A DNA stretch of 64,000 nt. Origin: Porphyra umbilicalis (taxonomy: Eukaryota; Rhodophyta; Bangiophyceae; Bangiales; Bangiaceae). Below are positions 45,252 to 64,000 of the stretch, one piece after another. The notes below the pieces were generated by a model. That model was given only the letters and a program-made list of their open reading frames with translations. It did not search any database and had not been told where the DNA came from. Every line of letters starts with the position of its first letter. The stretch's first letter is position 1. Where the stretch lies: NCBI GenBank assembly GCA_002049455.2, contig KV918904.1:122196-186195 (forward strand). Reading direction: 5' to 3'. A program made the position numbers and the translations under genes.

Positions 45252-48176
45252 ATGGCGCCGGCCGCCATGATGGCGTTTGCGACGGCCGCGCCGCTCGGCG
45301 GCGGCGCCGCCCGCCCCCGCGCTGCTGTCTCGTCGGCATCGTCGACCTTCACGCCAGACGTGGCCGGCGTGGCCCCCTGTGCCGCGACGGCCGCCGCCTC
45401 CCGCCGTCGCGCCCGCCCCCAAGCGGCCGCCGCCCTGCGCATGACGGCGCCCCCGCCAGTGCCGCTCGGCGAAACGGCCGCCTGCGCGGTGCTCGGCCAA
45501 GACGGCAACGGGGCGGCGTGGAAGGTGCACAAGTTTGGGGGCTCCTCCCTCGCAAACGCCACCTGCTTCCGCAACGTTGCGTCGATCCTCCGCACCGAAG
45601 CCGCCGCCGACGCGGCGGCGGCGCAGGGCAAACTCTTTGTCGTTGTCTCGGCGGTTGGCGGGGTGACGGACGCGCTGGAAGCGCTGGTTGTGGCCGCCCG
45701 TGACCGCGCGTCGGGGGAGCACTACCTGGAGGGCCTCGACGCGCTGCGGGAGCAGCACGAGGCGCTCGCGGAGGAGCTGCTGCAGCCGGGCGCGCGCGCG
45801 TCGTTTACCGCCTCCCTCACGTCGGGGCTGCGGGACATTCGTGATTTGCTGCGCGCCGCGTGGATTGCGCGCTCCGCGTCGTCCCGCATCACCGAGCTGG
45901 TCGTCGGCCACGGGGAGTTGTGGTCGGCGCAGCTCCTGTGGGGGCTCCTCCGCCAGGGCGGGGAGGAGAGTGTGGCGGCGGCGATTGAGGCGGTGGTCGG
46001 CGCGCCGGGGGTGGGGGGCCCCAAATCCGCCCCCTGCTCCTGGCTCGACGCGCGGGACGTGCTCGTCGCCTCCCCGTCGGCGGGCCGCTCCATCCGCCGC
46101 GTCGTTGACTGGGACGTGTCGCGGTCCAAGCTCAACGAGTGGACGCGCTCCAACCCGACGACGCTTGTCGTTGCCACAGGCTTTATCTGTGCGGACCCCG
46201 AGGGCGTGCCGACGACGCTCGGGCGGGATGGCTCAGACTACTCGGCGTCCTCATTTGCGCGCCTGCTGTGCGCGTCAGAGGTGACCATCTGGACGGACGT
46301 GGCGGGCGTCTTTTCGGCCGACCCGCGGGTCGTCCGCGACGCGGTGGTCATCCCCAAACTCACGTACAAGGAGGCGGCCGAGTTGGCCTACTTTGGCGCC
46401 CGCGTCCTCCACCCAGACACGATGACGCCGGCGATTGATATGGGCATCCCGCTGCGCATCCGGTCCACCCTTGACCCGTCGGCAGCGGGCACGTACGTCG
46501 ACGGGGTTGCCGACGACTCGGCAGCGGCGGCGGCAGACAACAGCGCGCCGGCGGCGGTGGTCAATGCGCTCGCGCGCTCCCGCGAAATGAGTGGCGTCAA
46601 GGGCTTCTCCACCGTCTCGGACGTATCGCTCATCAACCTCGAAGGCACGGGCATGATTGGGGTGCCCGGCATTGCGTCGACGCTGTTTGGCGCCCTCTCC
46701 GCCGCGGGCATCTCGGTCATCCTCATTGCGCAGGCGTCGTCTGAGTTTTCCCTGTGTGTGGCCGTCCCCGGCAGCTCGGGCGAAGCGGCGGTGGTGGCGG
46801 TGCGCAAGGCGTTCCGCGCGGAGCTGTTGGAGCGCCTCGTCTCGTCGGTGGAGCTGCTCTCCCACTGCTCCATCCTCGCCATGGTCGGCGAGCGGATGCA
46901 GCACCAGCCGGGCATGTCCGCCCGCCTCTTTGCGTCGCTCTCCAAGGCGGGCGTCAACATCCGGGCCATCTCGCAGGGCTCCTCGGAGAACAACATTAGC
47001 GTGGTCGTCGCGCGCTCGGACGAGCAGCGGGCGGTGCGGGCGTGCCACTCGGCGTTTTACCTGTCGGACCAGACGCTGTCGGTGGGGGTGATTGGGACGG
47101 GCCTCGTCGGCGGGACGCTCCTCGACCAGATCCAGTCGCAGGCCGCGTCGCTGCGCTCGGATTTTGGGGTGGACATTCGCGTGCGGGGGCTCGCCACGTC
47201 GAAGAAGATGCTTCTTGCGCCCGACGCGCTCGACCTCGATTCGTGGGCCGACGCGCTGGCGGCCAATGGGGCGACGGCGCCGCTCGACCTCGACGCCTTT
47301 TCGGCGCACATCCTCGATGCGACGCTGCCGCACGCGGTCATCTTTGACTGCACCGCCTCGGAGGCGCTGTCGCCCTACTATCCCCGCTGGCTGGCGGCGG
47401 GCATCCACATCATTACGCCCAACAAGAAGGCCAACTCGGACAGCACCGCCCTCTACACGGCCATCCGGGACGCGCAGCAGCGGCTCAACACGCACTTTTT
47501 CTACGAGGCCAACGTCGGCGCGGGGCTGCCCATCATCTCGACCATCCGGGATTTGCTGCGGACGGGCGACACGTTTACGCGCATCGAAGGCATCTTCTCG
47601 GGGACGCTCAGCTACATCTTTAACGAGTTTACCCCCGACACGACCTTCTCGTCGATCGTCGCGCGCGCCGCCTCGGAGGGGTACACGGAGCCGGACCCGC
47701 GCGACGACCTCGCGGGCACGGACGTGGCGCGCAAGGTCGTCATCCTGGCGCGGGAGATTGGGATCACCGTCGAGTTGGCCGACGTGGCCGTCGAGTCGCT
47801 GGTGCCCGCGGAGCTGGCCGACACCACCGCCGTGTCGGTGGAGGAGTTCACGCGGCGCCTCCCCGAGTTCGACGATGGCCTGACGGCCATGGCCGCCGAA
47901 GCTGCCACGGCGGGGGAGCTCCTCCGCTACGTGGGGGTGATTGACGTGCCGGCCAAAAAGTGCACCGTGGAGCTGCGGCGGTACCGGGCGGACCACCCGT
48001 TTGGGCGCCTGCAGGGGAGCGACAACATCGTGTCGTTCCATACCCGCCGGTATGACACGCAGCCGCTGGTCATCCAAGGGCCGGGCGCGGGCGCGGCCGT
48101 GACGGCGGCGGGCGTGTTTGCCGACTTGCTGAGGCTGGCCGCTCACCTGGGCGCGCCGTCGACCGCGGATATGTGA
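45252..48176 (+). CDS. AK-HSD: Bifunctional aspartokinase-homoserine dehydrogenase
   Basis: Catalyses the first and third steps of the aspartate pathway to threonine, methionine and isoleucine, in the plastid in algae and plants. Order: transit peptide (residues 1 to about 80), aspartokinase from KFGGSS at about residue 94 with GRDGSDYSASSFA, ACT domain 1 (VSLINLEGTGMIGVPGIAST) and ACT domain 2 (ILAMVGERMQHQPGMSARLF, then NIRAISQGSSENNISVVV). The homoserine dehydrogenase starts with the NAD(P)-binding VGVIGTGLVGG at about residue 611, then NKKANS, YEANVGAGLPIIST, FSGTLSYIFNEF and GYTEPDPRDDLAGTDVARK. All key blocks are intact, so both activities and threonine feedback through the ACT domains are expected from the family. 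The 974-residue start at 45,252 (MAPAAMMAFA) opens a transit-like stretch; an in-frame ATG at 45,057 is the alternative. There are no introns and no frame breaks. Confidence 0.95.
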   Translation: MAPAAMMAFATAAPLGGGAARPRAAVSSASSTFTPDVAGVAPCAATAAASRRRARPQAAAALRMTAPPPVPLGETAACAVLGQDGNGAAWKVHKFGGSSLANATCFRNVASILRTEAAADAAAAQGKLFVVVSAVGGVTDALEALVVAARDRASGEHYLEGLDALREQHEALAEELLQPGARASFTASLTSGLRDIRDLLRAAWIARSASSRITELVVGHGELWSAQLLWGLLRQGGEESVAAAIEAVVGAPGVGGPKSAPCSWLDARDVLVASPSAGRSIRRVVDWDVSRSKLNEWTRSNPTTLVVATGFICADPEGVPTTLGRDGSDYSASSFARLLCASEVTIWTDVAGVFSADPRVVRDAVVIPKLTYKEAAELAYFGARVLHPDTMTPAIDMGIPLRIRSTLDPSAAGTYVDGVADDSAAAAADNSAPAAVVNALARSREMSGVKGFSTVSDVSLINLEGTGMIGVPGIASTLFGALSAAGISVILIAQASSEFSLCVAVPGSSGEAAVVAVRKAFRAELLERLVSSVELLSHCSILAMVGERMQHQPGMSARLFASLSKAGVNIRAISQGSSENNISVVVARSDEQRAVRACHSAFYLSDQTLSVGVIGTGLVGGTLLDQIQSQAASLRSDFGVDIRVRGLATSKKMLLAPDALDLDSWADALAANGATAPLDLDAFSAHILDATLPHAVIFDCTASEALSPYYPRWLAAGIHIITPNKKANSDSTALYTAIRDAQQRLNTHFFYEANVGAGLPIISTIRDLLRTGDTFTRIEGIFSGTLSYIFNEFTPDTTFSSIVARAASEGYTEPDPRDDLAGTDVARKVVILAREIGITVELADVAVESLVPAELADTTAVSVEEFTRRLPEFDDGLTAMAAEAATAGELLRYVGVIDVPAKKCTVELRRYRADHPFGRLQGSDNIVSFHTRRYDTQPLVIQGPGAGAAVTAAGVFADLLRLAAHLGAPSTADM

Positions 48177-48632
48177 GTAGGTGCCAGTAGGTTTTGTTGG
48201 GACTGGGCTTTTTTCTGCACGGCACGTCTCTTGCTCGCTCGTCTTGCGCGCCATTTTAGGACTGGCACATTTTTCTCTCTTCTAGTATTTTCCATCACCA
48301 AATATTTCTCGTTGTTTTTCAATTGGTAGCCCATGCAACAAAGATATTTCAGTTGATCAAATAAAACTGCTCTCAACCATTCAGCTTGCATGCCAATTAA
48401 CGACAGTGTGTCCATGTTGGCCGATCGAACAGATCACGGTTCCCGACGGCAGGCCACAATCAGGCTTCCGATTGCCGGCCGACCGACGTCGGCTGCGAGT
48501 AGGTCGGTGCGCGGCGCCGCGAGGAAGACGACGTGTTTGCGAGCGGGCTGTCGCGGTCATTGGTGTGTTCCCCCACTATCCCCACGCACCTTTTCCCTTG
48601 GGCGCTGAGGCCCGTCCATCTGTGTCGCCAAG
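48177..48632. other. Spacer with possible polyadenylation signal
   Basis: AATAAA occurs at 48,360-48,365, about 185 bp after the aspartokinase stop, in AT-rich DNA. The last 50 bp (CCTTTTCCCTTGGGCGCTG) form the leader of eL37. Confidence 0.4.
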
Positions 48633-49380
48633 ATGACCAAGGGCACGAGCAGTTTTGGTAAGCGCACGTCCAAGTCGCACACCCTGTGTGTGCGGTGCGG
48701 GCGTCGCTCCTTCCACATCCAGAAGAGCCGTTGCGCGAGCTGTGGGTACCCCGCTGCACGCAAGCGGACCTGTACGTTTGTCGTCCCGATTGGATTGGCT
48801 TTGTGTGACGGCCTGTTGCGGAGGATGCGGAGGAGTGGCGTGACATGAGTTTGTTCATGCGAGGGTCCGGCAGTGGTGTGCCGCCAGACCTGGGGTCTAT
48901 GGCTGGCGGTTGTCTCCGTGATTGGAGTGCTGGTGGGAGTGCTGGTTGGATTGTGTTCTCGCATTCAATCTGGCGGGCTGTGCTGCTGCGACCTGCACTG
49001 CTCGTCTGTGTGCTGCAGTGCCGTGGTGCATTGAGACGTGTAGCGGGTCTGTGTGCGACAGGCTCTCACTGCACGTGAGGCATCCCGGGGTGGTGCATCG
49101 TGCGGCTCTCCACCGACCCTCTGGTGCTGACTACGTTACTTCCACGATGGATTGGTGATGCTGTTCTGTTTTTGGGCTGCTCCCGTTCCTGCCACTGATC
49201 CGCATGGCTCTGCCTTGCCCCCCCCTCTTCACAACAGACAACTGGTCGGAGAAGAGCAAGCGCAGGCGCACGACGGGGACTGGTCGGATGCAGCATCTCA
49301 AGAACATGCCGCGCCGCTACAAGAACGGCTTCCGTGAGGGCACTCAGGCGAAGCCCAAGGCCATCGCCGCGTCCGCTTGA
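48633..49380 (+). CDS. RPL37: Cytosolic ribosomal protein eL37 (2 exons)
   Basis: A 93-residue component of the cytosolic 60S subunit. Exon 1 is 48,633-48,771 and exon 2 is 49,238-49,380; the 466-nt intron starts GTACGT and ends CAACAG, phase 1. The spliced 282 nt are divisible by three. The start [11 protein letters not shown] is invariant in the family. A zinc-ribbon is formed by Cys19, Cys22, Cys34 and Cys37 (CVRC and CASC). The joint gives [20 protein letters not shown], followed by [16 protein letters not shown], both highly conserved. The tail after GTQ is slightly longer and Ala/Lys-rich. An upstream AAGATG start context is seen. Confidence 0.95.
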
Positions 49381-50101
49381 GCGGTCGGCGCTGCCGCTGC
49401 TTCTGTGGGGAGCCGGGTCCATTTTCTAGGTGCTGTGTGTTGTGCTCCACTGTTGTGGGCGCTTGTGTCGGTCGCGGTTGCAGTGCTGAGTCGGCGGTGT
49501 ACGTCTATCGCCAGCCTACTGGCCTTGATGTTTTGCCTTGCGAGCCTTCTGGGGTGCGTGCATGGCGCTCGTGGGGTCCATGAAAAAAAAAACAAGAAAC
49601 GTTGGTCCCTGGGGGTGTTTCAACAGGCGACCAGACCGCCAACGGGACGAATGTCGTCCGGGTCAATCATGGGTGCCATTAGGGTCCACCTCCCTGAGCG
49701 GGGAACCCTTTGCTTCCAACCAGCTGTGCTTCGGCGGCGCCAGCTGTCGGCGACGTCGACCATTGTGCTTGCTCGTCTGACTTCGGGTGCAGGGTCAAGA
49801 AGGCCCCCCGCTGAGACAGAAATTCTGCTGGGTGAGACAGAAAGTCTGCTTGATGGGCCAGAAACTCGCGTGTTCGGCGGCAGAGCATTCTGCAGTCTTC
49901 ACGCATTTGTCAGCGCTCATGCTCCGTAGAGGAAAGGAAGGTTATCGTCGCAGTTCATACAAGCCGAAAGTGGTGCCGATGGACGTGCTCGACGATGCAT
50001 GTGTCACAGCTAACAAGGGATCGACTCAAACAAAAAGGAAACAACGTACATGAGTGCAGAACGGCCCACCCGAGCGCCGTCTCCACCCTCCCCTTCACCC
50101 C
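49381..50101. other. Spacer between convergent eL37 and YKT6
   Basis: 720 bp with no gene recognised. Near 49,810-49,870 the short phrase AGACAGAAA.TCTGCT repeats (about 15-bp period, three degenerate units). Confidence 0.45.
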
Positions 50102-51296
50102 TCACATCATGCCGCAACACGAGTTTTGGCTCTTGGCCTGCTTGTAAAACATCTTGCTCTGCATCGACAGGTCGTTGCTCTTCTCCACAAGCGAGTCGAG
50201 CTTGACGCCCCGCTCCAGCACGCCGTCGATGGTCTTGTGGAGGATGACCTTGGTGTCATCCAGGTCTTTTTGGATCTTCATGATGGGATCTGCCTCGGCC
50301 GGGTCCTGGTACTTCTCGATGGTCGCGTCCAGGGCGGGAAAGGTCAGTGCCGGCGTGTGGCTGCTGCCCGACCCGTCGTCCCGCACCGAGTGCCACGACG
50401 ACTCGACGGGGTGGGCCGCGAGGAATTCGTCTTGCATCTTGGACAAAAGCGTAAACGCCACCCGCGATGGGTACTCCCGGTCACACAGCGCCACGCCGAC
50501 GAGGCCGTTGGAGCGCGAGTGCACGTGACATAGGTACTCGTGGTGCTCAACCGTGGATCGACCACCCGACGGGACGCGCTTGGCCAGCGTCTTGGAGAAA
50601 AAGGAGGCAAACTCCTTCAGACTGTGGGGAGGGGGAAAAACCGTGCAAAGTGTGTGCGCAACACCGCAGTTCCAAGTGAAATGGATGACCAGCCACAAAG
50701 AGACCGAAACGGGAACAGTGGCAAGAGAAAAGGCGGACAGGCAAGTATACATAGGCAAGCAAACATAGACCAGCAAAACAGACATGAGGAAAAAAGGGGG
50801 CAGGAAGGACACTGGTGAGCAGCCGCACGGAAGGGAAGCATCAGCACCCACGACCACCATCATAGCCCAGCACCAATGTATGGGTGCCGCGCGCCGTGAA
50901 AACATCCCGCCCAGCCCTGATAAACCGTACGTGCGCACAGAAAAACAACACCCCCCCGACAGTGACCGCATAGCCACGTCGGCGGCACAGTCGAGCACGG
51001 TACGCATGCATGGACCACACACCTCTGATGGCTCAACTACTCAAGCTGGTCACTGCGCCCACATACACTCTCTTCAGTGGCGGCGACAACCACAGTCGGC
51101 ACAGGGCCGTGCTCAACCAAACAGAACAAAGGCCCAGCCGTCATCCAACCGCCCACGCACCCCCCATGCAAACAAAAAAAACGTACCTGCCTCTTTGGAA
51201 GTAGTTGAAATCCCTCAGGTGGTAGGCTGCCGCCAGCGTCGTTGCCTCCTCCTCGTGCGGCAGCGCGCGGAGGAGCGTCAGTGCCAGTATCTTCAT
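50102..51296 (-). CDS. YKT6: R-SNARE YKT6 (2 exons)
   Basis: A 209-residue membrane-fusion SNARE of the secretory and vacuolar routes. Exon 1 is 51,296-51,187 and exon 2 is 50,621-50,102; the 565-nt intron starts GTACGT and ends CCACAG, and the spliced 630 nt are in frame. The N-terminal longin domain begins MKILALTLLRA, continues through NYFQRGSLKEFASFF across the splice joint and HEYLCHVHSRSNGLVGVALC, and has EYPSRVAFTLL, a YKT6 hallmark. The R-SNARE helix includes DPIMKIQKDLDDTKVILH and DGVLERGVKLDSLVEKS with the zero-layer Arg. There is no transmembrane segment. The C-terminus is NSCCGMM, a CaaX box with a second Cys, as needed for farnesylation plus palmitoylation in this family. Confidence 0.96.
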
Positions 51297-51764
51297 GGCG
51301 AGGGGGCGGGGGAAACACGGGAGTGACTGGGGCGTAGCAGACGACGTCGACGGCAAAAAGTCAACCACACTGCCGACAGGCTCGACGCCACCAGATGATG
51401 ACAGCACCGGCGTGGAAGCGGGTACCGGCAAAGGGCGGCGCGCGCTGGACGGCAGCAGCGGCAGGTCGCACGCAGAGGGGCGGCGGCGCAGAGGATGGGC
51501 GAGGGTGGGTGGGTGGTCACCCAGCCGCCACGAGGCCTTGAGTGACAGCAAGGGCGCGAGCGCAATGGCCGCGCAGCACGCTGCAATCGGGTGTGTGCCG
51601 CAACTGGTGACTGCGACGTGGACAGATGGTGGGGCTGCTCTGTAAGCTGTCAATAACAATCCTACATAATTGTCGGGGCACATAGTTTGATGGATTTAAA
51701 TGTGTGTTTGCTTTTTTTCACCAAGACTCAACCAGTAGTCACCTCTGGAAGAGGTGAGGAGCGA
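51297..51764. other. Upstream region of YKT6, up to the retroelement
   Basis: 468 bp between the YKT6 start and the first retroelement unit. The part near 51,640-51,760 is AT-richer. The YKT6 promoter should be here, so the element stops short of the gene. Confidence 0.5.
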
Positions 51765-51923
51765 AGCACCCTATTCACACCCAACGAGATGAACCTGGTG
51801 AACAGTCTACGATTACCCGCGCGAGGCGGCTCGAAGACGAGTGGCTGTGCCGGGCGAGACGGTGACGTGATGGAGGGGTGCGTTTGGGGTCCGGGCACCC
51901 CCCCCCGCGGCGGCGCGGCGGCG

Positions 51924-54900
51924 ATGGACGCGGCGGCGACCGGGGGGGCCGCCGCCGTCGCCGCGACGACGCGCGCGATCGCGGCGTTGCTCGACGCCGT
52001 CGCCGTGAACGCGACGGCGGCGTCGAAGCGAACGCTGCTGCTGCTGACAGTTGCGCATCTGACAGAGGATCGATTGGCTGGGGATGGTCCAATTTACGAT
52101 TCTCGCTTTTCATTGGCTGGCGCGGCGCCGCTAATCGCTATTAGCGGCTTAGCCGGCACCGCTATCCCCCCACCCCCGCGTGCTCCCCCACCCCCGCCAC
52201 TGACCGCCCCGCCCCCCCGCCCCTTCGCCCCCGGCTCCCCCCACTCCTGCTGCTGCTGCCCCCCACCCCCCGTCGACGGGGAACCCTTCCCGCTGCCGCC
52301 CGGCCGCCGCGGCCGCAAGGCCCGTCGCGCGGCGCGCCGCCATGCCGCCGCCGCGACGGTGGCTCCTCGCCTGCTCGCCGCTGCTCCCGCCGCCGCCGGC
52401 GCCGACGCCGGCCTGTCTCCCCCTCGCGGTTTCCGCGCTCCCCCCCCGTGGTTGCGGCGGCGGCTGCTGCCGCCGCCGCCCCCGCCGCGGTCGCCCGCGA
52501 CGCCGGGCCTCCCGCCGGCGCCGCCAACGTCGGTGCCGGCGGCCCCCCCCCCCCCCCGTACCGGCCGCCCCTGCGGCGGCCGCCCAAGACGCGGTCGCCG
52601 CGCCTGCGGCGGATCCCCGCGCTGCCCCCCGCCCGCGTCCCGCGACGTGGGCCGACGCGGTGGTCGGCGGGCGTGGGGCTGCCCCTGTGGCCGTGGCCGG
52701 CGGCCGGCGGCCGCCGCCGCGCGGCGGCAAACACAAGGACGCTGTGGCGGTAGCCGCCGCCGTGGCAGCGGCAAAAATCAAGGCCAAGGACGGAGGCGCT
52801 GCCGCGGCGGCGGCCGCTCGGCTCGCCCGCGCGACCGCCGCGGGCGCCGCGCTGCGCCGCCTCGCCGCCGGGTCGCCCCCGCAGGTGACGCTGCGGACTT
52901 TCTACGTCCGCGGCGTCGCCCGCGAGTCGCGCACCTGGCGGCTTCGTGAGCTGCTGTCGGGCGCCACAGGGCTGCCCAAGCGGGCGGTCGTCGACGTGGA
53001 CCGCGCCGGCGACCTCGCAGAGGTGCGCCTGCTGGCGCAGCACGCCGACGCGTTTGAGGCGGCGGTGGCGCTGTCGCCCGCCGCCGCCACGCTAACGCTC
53101 GTGCGGGGGGTCGACCCCCTCTCGCCGTCGCTGCTGGGCGCCCCGCGCCGACGCGGGCTGTCGGCGGAGGCGGCGTGCGAGGTGGCGCGCGCGTTTTACG
53201 TGGCCCGCCGCCGCGCCAAGCTCGCGTCGCTAGACGAGCGGGTGGGCATGCCGCCCGCCCACCGGGACGCCCTCCGCCCGCTGCTGCACCGGGAGCTCGC
53301 CCCGTACGTGCAGCAGCTGGGTGCTGGTGGTGGCGTGGTGGGCGGCCGCGTGGCGCTCCCGGCGGCGGCGGCCGCCGGTGCCGTTGCACAGCGCGGTGGT
53401 GCCGCCCGCCGCGGGGCGGACGGCGCTCGCCTGGTTCCGCCTCCGGGGGTGGCGACCGCGGAGGCGGTCGACGCCGACCGGCCGGGCGCCGAAAATTTCC
53501 AGCCGGCGGCTTCGCCCCCCGCGTCGGCTTCGGCCACCCCGTCTGAAATTTCAGTATTGCCTCCAACCCCCCCACGTTTTCGGCCGCCGCCGAAGACGAC
53601 GCGGCGGCCGAGGAAAATTCTTGCGCCGACGGGGACGGGGTCGATCCCGCATCCGGGATCGGGATGCGGGTGGTCGCCACGACGGCGACCGACCCCCCCC
53701 CCGAATCGGATTGCGCCTCGCCCCGGCGGGCCGCAAATTTTGCAGTGTCCTTCTCGCTCGGCGGCTACCGCACGCCCCCGACCAGCCCCCGCATTGGTGC
53801 GGCCCCCCCGACGCCCCCGCCGCGCGTGGCCCGCCATTCGCTTGGCGCCGCTGGCCACATGGCCGCCGCGGGCGGGGCGGCGGCCGCGGACCTGTCGGCG
53901 GGCCCGGCAGCCTCGCTCCCCCCACTGGCCGACGCCGTCGCTGCGGTGGTTGGGCGTGCACCGGGCGGCGCGGTCGGCGCCCTCTTGCTGGCGGCGGCGA
54001 TGTTCCGCGTCGCGGACGGCGCCGTGGCTGAGGCCGCTGACGCGGCTGCCCCACCGCGGCGCCTCGACCCGGCCGCCGCGGCGGCGCGCGCTGACGCGGC
54101 CGAGGCGCGCGGCGTGCGCGTGGCAGCGTCGGCCGCCGCCACGGCGGACGTGGATTTGGCGGTGTCGCCGCCGGCTACCCCCCCCCCTCCGACGCCAATG
54201 TCGCCAGCGCGGGGTTCTGACGACGCGGCGGCGATTTCCCTCGCGACCGCGCGTGTGTTGCGGCAGGCGGCCGCGCGCTTCGTGGCCGCCCATGACGCGC
54301 CCGTGGCTGTCGCGCGCCGCCTGCGGGCGGCCGCCCTCGAGGGCGTCGCCCGCCGTGCGCGAGGCGCCGCCGCCCGCGCTGTCGCCGCTGCTGCCGGCGC
54401 CGATGCCGCTGCTGCCGCGTTGGTGGGCCTCCCCCCGACGTGGGGAGCGACAGCTGTAGCTCGGGGGTGGTGGCGATTTTTTGTGCGCCCGCCGCTGGTG
54501 CGCGCGCTCCCCCTCCGACGCCCGCTGGTAAGCGGCGCGTGCGGGCGCCGCCCGACTCCGCGTCGGCGCCCCGCCTCGCCAGTGCGGTTCGCGCGCCGCC
54601 TGTCGGTGTCGCCGGTCGAACGCGCGGAGCCTGCCTGCGCGCCGCCGCTGTGGCGCCGCCGCACGTGCCCGGCGTGGCTGCGGGGCCGGTCCTTGCCTCG
54701 TCGCCGGCAGCGGCGCACGCCGCGGACGGCGTGCCGAGTGTCTGGCCCGCGTCTCGCGAGTTGGACCTTGCGGGGGGGTTCCCGCGGCGCCCCAACCTGG
54801 CGGTTGGCGTGCTGCGTGCACCGTCCCCGCTTCGGTCGACGCGCACGCGCGTGCGGCGGTCGCCGCGTCGCCACCTGCGGCGCACGACGCTCGCGCCGCC

Positions 54901-54975
54901 GCGCCGACGGCGGCGCCGCCTGCTGCTCCCCCCCCGTTAGCGACGTCACTGCCAAATGAGTTCCTCTGGCGGTGA
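51924..54975 (+). CDS. Retroelement ORF1, unit 1 (frame-broken)
   Basis: The product starts MDAAATGGAAAVAATTRAIA and is mostly Ala/Pro/Arg-rich, with an early non-repetitive piece LLLLTVAHLTEDRLAGDGPI. A more structured part lies at about 52,890-53,120: TLRTFYVRGVARESRTWRLR, then LPKRAVVDVDRAGDLAEVRL, which could be an RRM-like fold (inference). Such ORF1 proteins bind element RNA in other non-LTR families. Comparison of open frames needs five single added bases, mostly in C runs (for example C7 at about 53,569, which is C8 in unit 2). The adjusted length is then divisible by three. The frame ends at TGA 54,973-54,975, 20 bp inside ORF2. The start is conserved in unit 2 at 60,170. Confidence 0.6.
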
Positions 54976-57900
54976 CCTACCGGCCCTCGCGGGGGTGGGT
55001 CGGCTGCCGCGCCCGGTCGGGCGGCGCGGCCTGGCGAGGCGGAGGGGCGCAGCCCCCCCTCGCCGTCACATAACTGGGAGTTCCCGGCGTGTTTGTTCAG
55101 ATGGCTTGACTACTTCCCCCGACGACAGTGACTGCCCTTTTACCCCCCTTGCCCCGTCCCCCGCGCCGCCCGGCGCGGGCGACCGCGCCTTTGCCCCCCC
55201 CCCCCACGCCCGCCCTCAGTCCTCTGGCGCTTCTGCCCCCCCCCCCCCCCCCGCAGTCCGTCTGCTCGTTCGTGCTCCCCCCCCCCACGACGGCCCCGCC
55301 GGCTGGTGCGGCCGACGCGGCCGATGCGCACCGCTGCCCGGTTGAGACCTGCGGCGCGACTGCGGCGGGCAACCCGCTGTGGCTCGGCGTCCGCGCGCAC
55401 CTACGGGACGCCCACAAGGCCTCCGACGTGGCGGCGGCGGTGCTGGCGGCCAACCGGTTGCGCGGCTGCCGCCACTGCGGCGCCTTGCTTCCTTCTGGTC
55501 GGTCGACGACCGCCCGCCTGGCACTGGCGGAGCACGAGGCGGGCTGTGCTGCGCGCCCAGGCGCGCTCGCCGCCACCCTGGCGACCCGCGCGGTCCCGGG
55601 CCCTCCGGCCGTGGGTGGCGCCGCGGCGGCGTCGGCCGTTGCCGCGGCGGTGCCCTCTCTTTCCGTGGAGGGTGGGTCTGGTGTGTCTGTTGGTGCGGCC
55701 CTGCCCCTGGGCGTCTGCCCGTTGCTCAGCTGTGGTGCGGCCGTGGGGGAGGGCGACGCGTTCGTCGAGCACCTGCGCACGGCGCACACGGCGGTGGACG
55801 TGCCGCCCGAGCGCCTTGCGGAGGCGCAGCTGGGGGGCTGCCGGCACTGCCACCGCCTGTTTTCAGTGGTGCGGACGGCGTCCGGGCATCGCCCCCTGCG
55901 CTCGCACGAGCCCAACTGCCCGTCGCACCCGCTGCTGCAGGGGGGGGGTGGTCGTGCGGCGGCTGTGGCGGCAGCCACCGCGGCAGGTGCGGCGCCGGCG
56001 ACGGCGGCCGACTTGGCCAACTGGGCGACACGCACGTGCTGCGTTGTGGGTGGGTGCACCGCCGCGTTCCGCGGCGCCGTGACGCCGCGCACGCTGCCGG
56101 CGCACCTGGCGCGGTCACACAAGCTGGCGGCGGTGCCGGGGGAGTGGGTCCGCGCGCTGCGGTTGGCCGGGTGCCGCTACTGCGGTCGCCCATACCGCAC
56201 CGTGGTCGACTGGCAGCGGCGGACGTCGCTGTCACGTCACGAGGTGCGGTGCGACGCGCGGCCCGCGTTGGCAACGGAGGACGACGAGGACTCGCCGCCG
56301 CCGCCGGACGGCGAAGCGGGGGGTGCCCCTGCCAACGTCAACGACGGCGCCCGCTCGGCGCTGGTCGACGCGGCCAGAAACCGGACGGGCGGGGGCGCAC
56401 TCCTCCCCCCCCCCCCTCCCCCCCCCCCCCCTCAACGCTATTCTCGGAGGAGCCAAGCGAGTGGGCGCGGCGGCGCGGGGCTTTTTTGCTGCTGCAGGCC
56501 CCAACCCCCGACTCGTGGCCGGCGCTGGTGGCGTCCGGCGTGCGCACCGCCGACCACGTCGCCGCCTCGCTGCTGCCAGCGTGGCGGCAGCTGGGTGCCG
56601 ACGCGCTCTCCTGGGTGCGGCGCGAGCCGGGCAACGCCACCGCGTGGCTGTGGCTGATGACCCTCCCCTCCCTCCTCTTTCACGTCCCCGCGCGCACGCG
56701 GGGAAGGGGGGAGGGTCCAGCGCCGCTGAGTCACGCCGCGCGCGTGTCCGCGCTCCTCGACAGGGACTTTGCGGCCGCGTTGCGGGACCGCAATGTCGGT
56801 GTGTGGCGCGAGCCGCCCGAGTCTGCGGGCACGGCCACCACGCCGGCGGCCGTGGCGCCACCCGCTTCGCCTCCCTCACACCCGCCCACCCCCCCTCCCC
56901 CCCCCCGCCCGACTCGCCGGCTGCGCCCCTTCCCCCCCGCGGGTTGGGCCGGGCGTCCCCGTCCGCCCGACAAGCGCCCGGCTGCACGTGACACGCGTGC
57001 AGCGCCGGGCGCTCCGCCAAGTGTGGCGCGGCCGCCTGAGCGCCGCGGCGCGCACCCTGCAAGGGGCGCCGGTGGCGCCCCACACGGGCGCCGTCTGGCG
57101 GGCGGCGCGGCGGCTCTTCCCTCGCGCCACGCCGGGGCTGGCGACGACCGAGTCGGTCGAGGCCGACTTTGGCCCTGAGCTCGACGCCGCCGCCGCGCAC
57201 GGCGTGGCCGCGGGTGCCCCGCTGGGCTTGTCGGCGGCGGCGGTGGTGGCGACCATCCGGTCTGCCGCGCGCGGCTCCGCCCCGGGCCCGTCCGGCCTCC
57301 GAATGGAGCACCTGTGGGCGCTGGCGGAAGACGGGCGCGACGCGCTGGTGGGCGTGGTGCGGCTGTTGGCCACCGAGGCGGCGACGACGGTGGTGCCCGC
57401 GGTGGCGAGTCACGCGCTGGCGGGCGCCGAGCTGCTGCTGCTCGTCAAGCCGGGGGCGCCCGACGCTGACGGGGTGCCCCGGCTCCGCCCGATCGGGATG
57501 CCGAAACCATCCGCAAGCTGGTTGCCGGGTCGCTGGCGCGCGTCCTGCGCGCGTCGGCGGCCGCGCTGATGGCGCCGCTGCAGCTGGGCATCGGCGTTCC
57601 CAACGCGTGCGAGCGCCTCTTGCACGCGTTGGAGGCCCAGCTGGAGGCGGCGCCGGAGGAGGGGGTGCTGCTGCTGGACTACAAAAACGCGTTCAACCTG
57701 ATCTCCCGCGCGGCGGCGCGGGCGTTCATCGACCGCGCCTTTCCGTCCTTGACGCCGCACGTGGCGGCGACTTACGGCGGCGCTCCGCCGGCGGTGTACG
57801 GGTGGGCGGCGGCGCGGTGCGGCGGCGACGGTGCCGGCGACGGCGACGGCCGCGACGGCCGGGGCGGGGCGGGCGACGGCGGCGCCGGTGGGGCGGGTGA

Positions 57901-59955
57901 CGAGGACCCCCCCGGCCTGGTCGAGAGGACGACGACGCCCACCCGCCCCGGTGGGTGCCCCCCCCCCCGCCCGACGGGTGCTCACCGTCGAGCGGGGGAC
58001 GCAGCAGGGGGACCCGCTGGGGCCCTTTCTGCACGCCGCCGCGCTGATGCTCGTGCTTTTGCGTCTGTCGCGCCTCCACCCCGCGCACGTCATCGACGCA
58101 TTTCACGATGACGTGCGCGCGGTGGGGCCCGTGGCTGGGCTCGGCGCGGTGATGGCGTCGGCGGCGCGGGTTGGGGCGCTCGTCGACGCGGAGCTGTCGC
58201 CCACCAAGTGCGTGGCGTGGTCGCCGGGCGCCCCCGCGGCGCCGCCTGACCTGCCCGCCCAGTGGCGGTCGGAGGGGGTAAGCAATTTTCCATCCCTGTC
58301 GGCCGCCGCGATTTTGTGGCGGCGCGCGTCGCGGCCATGGCGGCAGAGCACGCAGCGGGGGTGGCGGCGATTGTCGCCCTGCCGGAGGAGGAGCTGCAGA
58401 CCAAGCTGCTCCTCCTCCGCCTGTGCGCGGGGCCGCGCGTGACGTACGCGCTGCGGTCTCTCCCCCCCGACGCGGGCGCCACGTTGGCCGCCGCCGTCGA
58501 CGCGGACTTGCAGCGGACGGTGCTCTCCCTTCTGTGCGACGCAACGGACGGCGCCGAGGTGCGCGCGGCGTTGATTGCGCGCGCCGCGCTGCCCGTCCGC
58601 ATGGGGGGGCTGGGCGTCGGAGATCGTTCGCGCGTTGCGGCGGCGGCCGTCGTGGCGTCCTGGGCGGACGCTGCTGTGCACTGCCACCGGGCGGCGGCGC
58701 CGGCGTTGGCCGACCTGGCTGGTGCCCTGCGGGACACCAACCCGGTTGGTCCTGCAGCGCCCGCCGGCGCCCAGGTTGACACCCGGGCGTGGCCGGGCGC
58801 CCCTCGGGCGGGCGCTGCGGCTGCTGCTAGCGCCGCTGGCGCTCCACCGGCGGCCGACGCGACGCCGTCGGCGCGTCGCCCCCCCATCCTCCCGGGCCTT
58901 CTGGCGGCCGTCGCCGCCCTGAACGCCGCGTCCGGCGCGGCGCCCGCACCCCCCTCAACCGCCCCCGACCTCCTTGCCCCCCCTGCCGACGCCCATATTG
59001 CGGCGACCGGCCTACTCCGCGTCGCGGGGGGACTCGGCTGAGTTGGGCGCGGCTGCTCGGGGGGGCGCGGGCCCCGTCCCAGCGGGACCTGGCGGGGCCC
59101 GTGCACCTTGCCGCGCTGGAGAGGCTGCGGGCCTCCCTGCCGGATAACGCCGACCTCGCGCGGCTGGCTGCCTGCCACGGGGCGGGCGCTGGCCTGTGGC
59201 TGTCTGCGCTGCCAGCGCCCGGCCGCCCTGCTGGCGCCATCGGCGGGCGGGCCATGAAGATGGCCACCCGCCTCTGGCTTGGCGTGCCCCCTGTCGCGCG
59301 GACGGCGGTGGCGCGCCGGTGCGCGTGCGGTGCTGCGGTGGACGCGTACGGCGTCCACTTCCTGGCGGCTTGCAGCGCCCCCTCGTGCATCGCCAATGCC
59401 ACGTTTCGCCACAACACGCTTGTGGCGCGGACGGCGGACGCGCTGCGCGCGCACCCGCAGTGGCGGGACGTCGAGGTGGAGGCGTCGTCCGCGCTGTTCA
59501 GCGCTGGCACTGCGACGCTTCGCCCGGACGTGCGGGCGGTGCGCGTGCGGACTGGGGGGGTGGTCTGGGGCGACGTCGCCGTCGCGTCGGTCTTCACCGA
59601 CAAGGTCGTCGCGGACGTCGTCGCCCGGCCTTCCTTGGCTGTGGCCGCGGTGGGGCGCGAGGCGCGCAAGGTGCGCAAGTACGCGCCGCGTCTCCCCGCC
59701 GCCGACCCGCCCGCTGTCTTCACCCCACTGGTGTGGGAGGTGTTCGGCCGCGTGGGCCCCGCGTCCGCGGACTTCTTGCGCACCGCCGTCGGTGGTCCGG
59801 GGCGCTCGCGCGCGCTGGCGTCGCTGCTTACGGACGCGTCCGCTATCATTTGGCGCTATAACGCGCGCATGCTTTGTGAGGGTTTTTCGAGGTGTGACGC
59901 GAGGGGGCGGGCCACTTTGGACGCCCCAACTGCTTTGGCCCGAGTTTCCGGTTGA
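54956..59955 (+). CDS. Retroelement ORF2, unit 1: zinc fingers, reverse transcriptase, endonuclease (frame-broken)
   Basis: ORF2 starts ATG 54,956 (MSSSGGDLPALAG). Region 55,335-56,252 holds three repeats of a two-finger module, C-x4-C-x12/15-H-x4-H-x17-C-x2-C-x18-H-x3-C. The reverse transcriptase follows: RLRPIG near 57,480, motif A LLLDYKNAFNL with the catalytic Asp at 57,677, motif B QQGDPLGP at 58,002, motif C FHDD at 58,101-58,112, then LSPTKC and LPVRMGGLGVGD (about 58,590). The C-terminal nuclease has CAC-x9-H-x4-C (59,320-59,373), RHN (59,407), Glu, RPD (59,521) and Asp (about 59,572), as in R2-type enzymes, then KVRKYAPRLP. It would nick the target and prime reverse transcription there. 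Several frame changes occur, mostly in C runs, so this copy is either dead or mis-read. Stop at 59,953-59,955. Confidence 0.85.
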
Positions 59956-60169
59956 GTGGGGCCTCGGCCTCATTTCGTAGTTAGCGGACATTAGGTCCGG
60001 GCCTGATGAGCAGCACCCTATTCACACCCCACGAGATGAACCTGGTGAACAGTCTACGATTACCCGCTCGAGGCGGCTCGAAGACGAGTGGCTGTGCCGG
60101 GCGAGACGGTGACGTGGCGGAGGGGTGCGTTGGGGGTCCGGGCACCCCCCCCGCGGCGGCGCGGCGGCG

Positions 60170-63100
60170 ATGGACGCGGCGGCGGCCGGGGGGGCCGCCG
60201 CCGTCGCCGCGACGACGCGCGCGATCGCGGCGTTGCTCGACGCCGTCGCCGTGAACGCGACGGCGGCGTCGAAGCGAACGCTGCTGCTGCTGACAGTTGC
60301 GCATCTGACAGAGGATCGATTGGCTGGGGATGGTCCAATTTACGATTCTCGCTTTTCATTGGCTGGCGCGGCGCCGCTAATCGCTATTAGCGGCTTAGCC
60401 GGCGCCGCTATCCCCCCCACCCCCGCGTGCTCCCCCACCCCCGCCGCTGACCGCCCCGCCCCCCCGCCCCTTCGCCCCCGGCTCCCCCGCTCCTGCTGCT
60501 GCTGCCCCCCACCCCCCCGTCGACGGGGAACCCTTCCCGCTGCCGCCCGGCCGCCGCGGCCGCAAGGCCCGTCGCGCGGCGCCCGCCATGCCGCCGCCGC
60601 GACGGTGGCTCCTCGCCTGCTCGCCGCTGCTCCCGCCGCCGCCGGCGCCGACGCCGGCCTGTCTCCCCCTCGCGGTTTCCGCGCTCCCCCCCCCGTGGTT
60701 GCGGCGGCGGCTGCTGCCGCCGCCGCCCCCGCCGCGGTCGCCCGCGAGCCGGGCCTCCCGCCGGCGCCGCCAACGTCGGTGCCGGCGGCCCCCCCCCCCC
60801 CCCCGACCGGCCCCCCTGCGGCGGCCGCCCAAGACGCGGTCGCCCGCCTGCGGCGGATCCCCGCGCTGCCCCCCGCCCGCGTCCCGCGACGTGGGCCGAC
60901 GCGGTGGTCGGCGGGCGTGGGGCTGCCCCTGTGGCCGTGGCCGGCGGCCGGCGGCCGCCGCCGCGCGGCGGCAAACACAAGGACGCTGTGGCGGTGGCCG
61001 CCTCCGCGGCGGCGGCGAAAATCAAGGCCAAGGATGGAGGCGCTGCCGCGGCGGCGGCCGCTCGGCTCGCCCGCGCGACCGCCGCGGGCGCCGCGCTGCG
61101 CCGCCTCGCCGCCGGGTCGCCCCCGCCGGTGACGCTGCGGACTGTCTACGTCCGCGGCGTCGCCCGCGAGTCGCGCACCTGGCGGCTTCGTGAGCTGCTG
61201 TCGGGCGCCACGGGGCTGCCCAAGCGGGCGGTCGTCGACGTGGACCGCGCCGGCGACCTCGCAGAGGTGCGCCTGCTGGCGCAGCACGCCGACGCGTTTG
61301 AGGCGGCGGTGGCGCTGTCGCCCGCCGCCGCCACGCTAACGCTCGTGCGGGGGGTCGACCCCCTCTCGCCGTCGCTGCTGGGCGCCCCGCGCCGACGCGG
61401 GCTGTCGGCGGAGGCGGCGTGCGAGGTGGCGCGCGCGTTTTACGTGGCGCGCCGCCGCGCCAAGCTCGCGTCGCTAGACGAGCGGGTGGGCATGCCGCCC
61501 GCCCACCGGGACGCCCTCCGCCCGCTGCTGCACCGGGAGCTCGCCCCGTACGTGCAGCAGCTGGGTGCTGGTGGTGGCGTGGTGGGCGGCCGCGTGGCGC
61601 TCCCGGCGGCGGCGGCCGCCGGTGCCGTTGCACAGCGCGGTGGTGCCGCCCGCCGCGGGGCGGACGGCGCTCGCCTGGTTCCGCCTCCGGGGGTGGCGAC
61701 CGCGGAGGCGGTCGACGCCGACCGGCCGGGCGCCGAAAATTTCCAGCCGGCGGCTTCGCCCCCCGCGTCGGCTTCGGTCACCCCGTCTGCAATTTCAGTA
61801 TTGCCTCCAACCCCCCCCACGTTTTCGGCCGCCGCCGAAGACGACGCGGCGGCCGAGGAAAATTCTTGCGCCGACGGGGACGGGGTCGATCCCGCATCCG
61901 GGATCGGGATGCGGGTGGTCGCCACGACGGCGACCGACCCCCCCCCCGAATCGGATTGCGCCTCGCCCCGGCGGGCCGCAAATTTTGCAGTGTCCTTCTC
62001 GCTCGGCGGCTGCCGCACGCCCCCGACCAGCCCCCGCATTGGTGCGGCCCCCCCGACGCCCCCGCCGCGCGTGGCCCGCCATTCGCTTGTCGCCGCTGGC
62101 CACATGGCCGCCGCTGGCGGGGCGGCGGCCGCGGACCTGTCGGCGGGCCCGGCAGCCTCGCTCCCCCCACTGGCCGACGCCGTAGCTGCGGTGGTTGGGC
62201 GTGCACCGGGCAGCGCGGTCGGCGCCCGCTCGCTGGCGGCGGCGATGTTCCGCGTCGCGGACGGCGCCGTGGCTGAGGCCGCTGACGCGGCTGCCCCACC
62301 GCGGCGCCTCGACCCGGCCGCCGCGGCGGCGCGCGCTGACGCGGCCGAGGCGCGCGGCGTGCGCGTGGCAGCGTCGGCCGCCGCCACGGCGGACGTGAAT
62401 TTGGCGGTGTCGCCGCCGGCTACCCCCCCCCTCCGACGCCAATGTCGCCAGCGCGGGGTTCTGACGACGCGGCGGCGATTTCCCTCGCGACCGCGCGTGT
62501 GTTGCGGCAGGCGGCCGCACGCTTCGTGGCCGCCCATGACGCGCCCGTGGCTGTCGCGCGCCGCCTGCGGGCGGCCGCCCTCGAGGGCGTCGCCCGCCGT
62601 GCGCGAGGCGCCGCCGCCCGCGCTGTCGCCGCTGCTGCCGGCGCCGATGCCGCTACTGCCGCGTTGGTGGGCCTCCCTCCGACGTGGGGAGCGACAGCTG
62701 TAGCTCGGGGGTGGTGGCGATTTTTTGTGCGCCCGCCGCTGGTGCGCGCGCTCCCCCTCCGACGCCCGCTGGTAAGCGGCGCGTGCGGGCGCCGCCCGAC
62801 TCCGCGTCGGCGCACCGCCTCGCCAGTGCGGTTCGCGCGCCGCCTGTCGGTGTCGCCGGTCGGACGCGCGGAGCCTGCCTGCGCGCCGCCGCTGTGGCGC
62901 CGCCGCACGTGCCCGGCGTGGCTGCGGGGCCGGTCCTTGCCTCGTCGCCGGCAGCGGCGCACGCCGCGGACGGCGTGCCGAGTGTCTGGCCCGCGTCTCG
63001 CGAGTTGGACCTTGCGGGGGGGTTCCCGCGGCGCCCCAACCTGGCGGTTGGCGTGCTGCGTGCACCGTCCCCGCTTCGGTCGACGCGCACGCGCGTGCGG

Positions 63101-63220
63101 CGGTCGCCGCGTCGCCACCTGCGGCGCACGACGCTCGCGCCGCCGCGCCGACGGCGGCGCCGCCTGCTGCTCCCCCCCCCGTTAGCGACGTCACTGCCAA
63201 ATGAGTTCCTCTGGCGGTGA
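60170..63220 (+). CDS. Retroelement ORF1, unit 2
   Basis: Starts MDAAAAGGAAAVAATTRAIA. It is more intact than in unit 1: one frame of 599 codons (60,904-62,703) spans the RRM-like piece TLRTVYVRGVARESRTWRLR and the acidic stretch TFSAAAEDDAAAEENSCADG that is shifted in unit 1. Three frame changes remain, each mended by one added base. It ends LATSLPNEFLWR at 63,218-63,220, overlapping the ORF2 start by 20 bp as in unit 1. Confidence 0.62.
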
Positions 63221-64000
63221 CCTGCCGGCCCTCGCGGGGGTGGGTCGGCTGCCGCGCCCGGTCGGGCGGCGCGGCCTGGCGAGGCGGAGGGGCGCAGCCC
63301 CCCCTCGCCGTCACATAACTGGGAGTTCCCGGCGTGTTTGTTCAGATGGCTTGACTACTTCCCCCGACGACAGTGACTGCCCTTTTACCCCCCTTGCCCC
63401 GTCCCCCGCGCCGCCCGGCGCGGGCGACCGCGCCTTTGCCCCCCCCCCCCCACGCCCGCCCTCAGTCCTCTGGCGCTTCTGCCCCCCCCCCCCCCCCCCC
63501 CCCGCAGTCCGTCTGCTCGTTCGTGCTCCCCCCCCCCACGACGGCCCCGCCGGCTTGGTGCGGCCGACGCGGCCGATGCGCACCGCTGCCCGGTTGAGAC
63601 CTGCGGCGCGACTGCGGCAGGCAACCCGCTGTGGCTCGGCGTCCGCGCGCACCTACGGGACGCCCACAAGGCCTCTGACGTGGCGGCGGCGGTGCTGGCG
63701 GCCAACCGGTTGCGCGGCTGCCGCCACTGCGGCGCCTTGCTTCCTTCTGGTCGGTCGACGACCGCCGCCTGGCACTGGCGGAGCACGAGGCGGGCTGTGC
63801 TGCGCGCCCAGGCGCGCTCGCCGCACCCCGGCGACCCGCGCGGTCCGGCCTCCGGCGGTGGGTGGCGCCGCGGCGGCGTCGGCCGTTGCCGCGGCGGTGC
63901 CCTCTCTTTCCGTGGAGGTGGGTCTGGGTGTCTGTTGGTGCGGCCCTGCCCCTGGGCGTCTGCCCGTTGCTCAGCTGTTGCGGCCGTGGGGGAGGGCGAC
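63201..64000 (+). CDS. Retroelement ORF2, unit 2, 5' part
   Basis: Starts ATG 63,201 (MSSSGGDLPALAG). It includes the first zinc-finger module (CPVETC is readable at DNA level from 63,588 on) and runs off the window. From about 63,750 onward at least six single- or two-base indels relative to unit 1 scatter the frame. These look like low-quality sequence and not evolved change. Confidence 0.6.
   Translation, partial: MSSSGGDLPALAGVGRLPRPVGRRGLARRRGAAPPRRHITGSSRRVCSDGLTTSPDDSDCPFTPLAPSPAPPGAGDRAFAPPPPRPPSVLWRFCPPPPPPPAVRLLVRAPPPHDGPAGLVRPTRPMRTAARLRPAARLRQATRCGSASARTYGTPTRPLTWRRRCWRPTGCAAAATAAPCFLLVGRRPPPGTGGARGGLCCAPRRARRTPATRAVRPPAVGGAAAASAVAAAVPSLSVEVGLGVCWCGPAPGRLPVAQLLRPWGRA

Follow-up and report, generated by a model that had tools for sequence, protein, structure and literature searches.

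In the red alga Porphyra umbilicalis (assembly of 83.8 Mb in 665 contigs), the end of contig C144 (KV918904.1, positions 122196-186195; a stretch of 64,000 nucleotides, hereafter the window) carries a head-to-tail tandem of an R2-type retrotransposon that lacks long terminal repeats (non-LTR), inserted at the right end of a Fanzor/TnpB-like element. The features of this structure, in window positions, are:

51731..51769, minus strand: right end of the Fanzor/TnpB-like element, ACCAGTAGTCACCTCTGGAAGAGGTGAGGAGCGAAGCAC; its pattern occurs at 61 places in the genome, 42 of which lead into a Fanzor body, and another copy folds into two hairpins
51770..51851, minus strand: T0, first copy of the 82-nt target segment T; in Fanzor copies T comprises the last codons and the stop of an open reading frame (ORF) on the minus strand
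51852..60011, plus strand: body of unit 1, R2-type non-LTR element, 8.16 kb
55128..56654, plus strand: open segment in translation, N-terminal to the reverse transcriptase (RT), with three zinc-finger motifs seen by eye that we take to be C2H2-like
57169..58260, plus strand: RT region, frame-split in this copy, with LRPIGM at 57483, LDYKNAFN at 57674, QGDPLGP at 58005 and FHDD at 58101
59173..59952, plus strand: C-terminal zinc knuckle and restriction-like endonuclease (RLE), with a profile match to R2 proteins
60012-60016: AGCAC, assignable either to the element or to the target
60017..60098, minus strand: T1, target segment in its second copy, lying between units 1 and 2
60099..64000, plus strand: body of unit 2, first 3.9 kb, up to the contig end

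Units 1 (51852-60011) and 2 (60099-64000) have the same orientation and are 98.29% identical over 3918 aligned positions, with unit starts spaced 8244-8252 nt apart; C144 stops at the last base of the window, so unit 2 is cut there. A first-pass annotation made from the letters alone had described such a tandem of an R2-type element with no poly(A) at the junction, and all of this is borne out by the alignment, by the absence of poly(A) between units 1 and 2 and by the resemblance of the C-terminal profile to R2 proteins in the PDB. The same annotation set the left edge of the element at 51765 and had unit 2 start exactly where unit 1 ends. Instead, the 82-nt segment T lies between the units and also at 51770-51851, where the annotation had read it as the start of the element; it belongs to the target and is common elsewhere without the retrotransposon. 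The left edge of the structure is at 51731, where the 39-nt Fanzor right end adjoins outer DNA that varies between copies.

A search of the assembly for the junction of GTCCGGGCCTGATGAGC with AGCACCCTATTC, as the annotation had advised, returned exact matches at six places on six contigs, and the reversed control pattern had no match. Assembly errors are common where repeats reach contig ends, and our evidence comes from the assembly; nevertheless, an artefact of assembly is very improbable, given these six junctions on six contigs, the differing substitutions carried by the T copies and the fact that some insertions are bounded on both sides.

The occupancy of the target across the genome defines the site preference of the element. 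Allowing up to 3 mismatches, a 26-base pattern of the right end matched 61 places (control pattern, 0). Of these, 42 continue into a Fanzor body, including L103, which lacks most of T; 13 lead into the retrotransposon, and 6 are truncated. When the best 40 of 102 candidates for the supposed 5' end were scored, 23 extended into the element and 17 matched the first 84-93 bases of the query only; at the uninserted places read among those 17, T runs on into a different, Fanzor-like repeat. Thirteen of the 23 element 5' ends follow a right end plus T, with differing outer DNA, and eight follow the 3' end of another unit plus T (the inter-unit T at L003 was counted here). The remaining two are both on C40, one behind a divergent, probably right-end sequence and the other behind a further element within T. 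On the opposite side, T and a further unit come after 8 of the 25 element 3' ends, T and Fanzor sequence after 12, an interrupted T after 1 (on C40) and other sequence after 4. Thus 20 of 25 3' ends, plus the interrupted case, abut T, as expected for sequence-specific insertion. Insertion into the 28S ribosomal RNA (rRNA) gene, which defines R2 in the strict sense, was not found: these 20 (+1) of 25 3' ends lie at the Fanzor-end segment, and the flanks of the other four gave no identification.

Two results weigh against the explanation favoured below. Four of the 25 3' ends (C13, C387, C129 and C3) have no clear T behind them, and inspection by eye of up to 350 nt upstream of ten breakpoints of incomplete copies revealed no T, several of these breakpoints being interruptions by other elements. 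Predicted 5' edges on C67, C60, C129 and C13 and predicted 3' edges on C459 and C75 gave no match.

The first-pass annotation had offered three origins for the tandem, namely insertion of the element into its own 3' terminus, an array at a chromosome end, or local duplication. The first finds no support, as the target is the Fanzor right end, 42 of 61 copies of which lead uninserted into Fanzor sequence; the right end plus T upstream of a unit seems to serve as the target of the next unit. Two or more units in a row occur on seven contigs (C144, C288, C283, C504, C354, C55 and C40). On C40, an element about 7.6 kb long (C40:128477-136070; L060, L028), with the ends CAGGGGTTGTCA and TGACAACCCCTG, seems to interrupt the T between units b and c; similar ends are also found inside a unit on C60 (L056).

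Telomeric arrays, of the kind formed by Giardia GilM and GilT, would place such rows at chromosome ends, and the arrays on C144, C504 and C354 as well as the insertions on C490 and C297 do reach contig ends. Yet a Fanzor right end, bordered by outer DNA that varies, precedes 13 of the 23 scored 5' ends, and the insertions on C38, C116 and C288 are bounded at one edge by a right end next to non-repeated DNA and at the opposite edge by Fanzor sequence. Furthermore, no telomere-like repeat (doubled TTAGGG or TTTAGGG) is present in 128 loci, a small sample of the genome. We therefore regard a telomeric origin as highly unlikely.

The relationships between units speak to local duplication. Among 23 units compared in a tree over their initial 1.4 kb, those in first position on C288, C354, C504 and C283 group in one shallow clade (support 94/91), and the second and third units of those arrays fall into other clades; in four arrays the first position is held by a young unit. 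By distance, 11 of the 16 units in multi-unit arrays are closest to a unit of some other array, and 3'-end variants differ inside one array, for example on C288. That 11 of 16 units are nearest elsewhere points to repeated insertion, with units that arose mostly in serial, independent events. Duplication of units in place, or unequal crossing-over between repeats, would instead make neighbours the closest kin. This is seen for five of the 16 units (C144u1, C55u1 in a near tie, C283u2, C40a and C40c) and agrees with the 98.3% likeness of the window units, but as a general cause it is contradicted by the other 11, by the mixed 3'-end variants and by the separate clades of first and later units in four arrays, and we judge it improbable. 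For the window pair itself a local origin is possible, since both units are close to each other and to C55u2: C144u1 differs from C144u2, its nearest relative, by 1.43% and from C55u2 by 1.65%, and C144u2 is nearest to C55u2 (1.08%).

The repeat that supplies the target has an ORF on the strand opposite to the retrotransposon, open for more than 500 amino acids, whose stop lies inside T. Its product matches PF07282 (Cas12f1-like TNB, a zinc domain of TnpB/Cas12f type) with E = 5.7e-6 and 26.8 bits at a cut-off of 26.3; another copy reaches 28 bits. Against the NCBIfam TnpB model the match stays sub-threshold (E 0.06-0.11). Sequence and profile searches returned no PDB match for the protein, and its fold prediction is unusable (predicted local distance difference test (pLDDT), 31). 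The zinc domain, together with GRDTNAARN, which we take to be a RuvC-like motif, points to a Fanzor-like protein. Among 12 Fanzor copies beside a retrotransposon 3' end, the ORF is open to its usual end GSSRGV in five (C38, C447, C116, C438 and C5) in the stretch examined; in the other seven it is shifted, ends differently or is not listed, which counts against the explanation favoured below.

In folds of another copy, the right end has a z-score of -2.1 on the ORF strand and -1.5 on the other strand. The available text of Saito et al. (PMC10432273) places omega RNAs at the right ends of Fanzor elements; the right end described here may be a guide (omega) RNA end. Six of 56 right ends (L036, L068, L076, L080, L085 and L098) show a constant right end, variable truncation of the other side and repeats of 11-21 bp in the host flanks, compared with one repeat of 10 bp in the reversed-flank control. 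Chlamydomonas Fanzor elements, as described in the accessible portion of PMC3627910, are constant at the 3' end, truncated at the 5' end and associated with duplications of about 7-19 bp; the copies with a constant right end and flank repeats resemble these published Fanzor1 elements. A ribozyme or other known RNA at the junction was also considered, and Rfam returned nine matches up to E 5 over 48000-64000, all under gathering scores. The idea that T is a tRNA likewise failed: ARAGORN found none in L035, L007 and L029, and this program also missed a tRNA lacking its 5' end that Rfam found in L119.

As for the inserting element, a profile built from nine C-terminal sequences, including sister families, was compared with 177635 PDB sequences. 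The top three matches, and the sole ones with E<1, are R2 proteins (8gh6, E 9.6e-5; 8ibw, 0.0016; 9nl2, 0.021), and the C terminus has the zinc knuckle and RLE that mark R2-type elements in the broad sense. Foldseek also ranks R2 first, with E 0.16 and a poor model (pLDDT 40); none of the nine C-terminal sequences has a Pfam match. Judged by its sequence, the element is an R2-type non-LTR retrotransposon in the broad sense, with an R2-type endonuclease at its C terminus. The evidence from the RT is less favourable to this assignment, as RVT_1 reaches just E 0.3, below the cut-off, on the C288 copy and the window copy is frame-split. No Pfam match was obtained for 57978-58259, the piece with QGDP and FHDD, and a genome search with PF00078, in which the best 150 of 847 candidates were scored, gave none at this locus. 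By eye, the four motifs that we take to be those of an RT stand in the expected order. Within 55128..56654, no Pfam zinc-finger match exceeded the cut-off.

Taken together, we consider it likely that a site-specific RLE non-LTR element inserts into the Fanzor right end and renews its target at the upstream edge, where the arrays grow. The target would be one point in the right end, at the boundary between AAGC(T/A)C and CCTATTC just outside the Fanzor stop codon. After insertion, the element would be preceded by the right end plus T (82 nt) and followed by T plus the Fanzor body. An intact target would thereby be present again at the upstream edge for later copies, and a head-to-tail array would grow with its newest unit beside the right end. 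In mechanistic terms, target-primed reverse transcription (TPRT) may begin where the left edge of T is nicked on the bottom strand. With the top strand cut some 82 bp downstream, a long target-site duplication (TSD) would result, and the right-hand part of T is probably supplied by the element RNA, where it may aid joining of the 5' end.

The copies of T bear on this last step. We compared within-pair differences for 13 pairs flanking units with 3000 shuffles; a TSD predicts that copies match by locus. The left part of T does match within insertions (1.23 differences versus 5.55 when shuffled; 0.4% of shuffles as low). In C40 unit b, the left part is of the local, divergent type even though the body belongs to the main clade (6.6% from its nearest relative). 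The right part, by contrast, is not matched within insertions (0.77 versus 0.91; 31% of shuffles) and tracks the lineage of the element: the single-nucleotide polymorphism CTCGGAG is present in T0 of all four young units and in T1 of C504 only. In C288, the upstream T copies end in GTGCC and the Fanzor copy in GCGTC. A pure TSD would not produce this pattern of the right part. A long stagger with the right part copied from element RNA is favoured by the combination of a left part that follows the locus and a right part that follows the lineage.

Besides this behaviour of the right part, further observations tell against the proposed duplication. The result for the left part is driven by C40, a divergent variant, and outside C40 the pairs differ at 0-2 sites with no clear pattern. 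In addition, the downstream T of C116 has the substitution CCAATTC, which is common to several Fanzor copies and absent upstream. A serious rival thus takes T at the 5' end as a fixed part of the element, a target-like terminus, with insertion at AAGC^CCTATTC and no TSD; architecture and upstream growth would be the same. The lineage-wise right part and the C288 endings fit this rival, whereas the local left part of C40 unit b does not, and we hold it to be somewhat unlikely. Under the preferred reading of renewal through a long stagger, cleavage of the second strand far downstream of the first nick becomes directly testable.

A sister family of the element appears to behave in the same way. 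The RT protein matches 128 genome stretches, and sister families of about 48-61% identity stand in rows about 8 kb apart on C57, C210, C394, C36, C481 and C596. On C57 (L119, C57:21200-21750), the 3' end of a sister element is followed by a tRNA-Ile lacking its 5' end (Rfam tRNA, E 1e-6). Nine full or partial matches to this tRNA-derived segment lie 7.5-8.9 kb apart on the contig, and two of them were inspected at the sequence level. On C507 (L120, C507:1370-1570) stands a complete tRNA-Ile(AAT), and directly behind it comes sequence resembling the beginning of the next unit on C57. When the assembly was searched with the 42-base 5' part of the tRNA, allowing up to 3 mismatches, this was the single match; an intron-bearing gene would escape such a search. 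In its tRNA-Ile gene the sister family seems to repeat the design of the Fanzor family, with an intact target upstream and a target lacking its 5' end downstream. The T0 predicted for the C57 array was not found at C57:13000-13350, and seven loci at the flanks of the C210 and C24 sister arrays, which reach few bases into the flank, revealed no RNA family. On C24 (L125, C24:274600-275050), the flank behind a sister 3' end, AGTATAGTGGT to GAGTATGCCC, is present twice, 5.2 kb apart; it may resemble the D-arm of tRNA-Asp with an insertion. The 3' end of the sister array on C210 (L124, C210:63480-63980) has nine genome matches.

From these sequences it is conceivable, and we put it forward tentatively, that some RLE retrotransposons of this alga form a group with target-restoring insertion. 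Each time, a repeated segment spanning nearly the whole RNA-coding target would regenerate an intact target upstream, so that even a single essential gene could be occupied and stacked upon; the sole complete tRNA-Ile(AAT) found sits at such an edge. One family would have moved to the possible guide-RNA end of Fanzor, an element encoding an RNA-guided nuclease, and left the ORF readable in at least some copies.

Two further observations concern the assembly at large. Positions 1-51000 of the window have a GC content of 65%. Scoring of 63 among 1261 tRNA candidates gave 49 listed matches, 25 of which fall on contig C665, a contig at least 183.5 kb long. The two observations together suggest a Porphyra-like red alga whose plastid genome is part of the assembly.

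If target renewal holds, a site-specific long interspersed nuclear element (LINE) could escape the limit set by the supply of targets, the order of units in an array would record the history of insertion, and the end of a Fanzor element would join the known targets. Among the papers listed in searches of open-licence literature, none described a LINE with a Fanzor end as its specific target. Specificity of a non-LTR element for another transposon has a counterpart in Xenopus, where Tx1L resides in Tx1D; Tx1L differs from the present element in its apurinic-type endonuclease and in the host element. R2 in the strict sense shares the C-terminal zinc knuckle and RLE, including the match at the sequence level, and differs in its 28S target. 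R9 of rotifers, a member of the R2 clade, also inserts into 28S rRNA genes, and its likeness to our element lies in a long TSD, reportedly of 126 bp. This duplication is called exceptionally long in a title cited in PMC5035012. The consulted part of PMC4640811 lists the NeSL-related NeSL-1_TV, LIN15_SM and LIN25_SM as specific for tRNA-Pro, tRNA-Arg and tRNA-Glu genes, and that of PMC3706591 reports that Dada DNA transposons target tRNA genes as well. Our sister family is like these three NeSL-related elements in having a tRNA gene as target, and unlike them in its array habit and in the choice of tRNA-Ile.

A close parallel is Utopia, of the NeSL clade, which according to the sections of PMC4640811 at hand inserts into U2 small nuclear RNA (snRNA) genes, sometimes in tandem. 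In Phytophthora, an intact U2 lies upstream of Utopia and a 5'-truncated U2 downstream, which its authors read as a 5' deletion upon integration, leaving duplication possible; target renewal offers an alternative reading of this pattern. As far as that text goes, Utopia and our element share the RLE enzyme, N-terminal zinc fingers (motifs seen by eye in ours), a strict target (a small-RNA gene in Utopia), tandem insertion, which is occasional in Utopia, and an intact target upstream with a 5'-truncated one downstream. They differ in that the target is U2 there and a Fanzor end here (tRNA-Ile in the sister family), and in that the repeated 82-nt target segment is seen here directly. Elements of the Utopia/NeSL type are already known to stack in U2 genes and to target tRNA genes.

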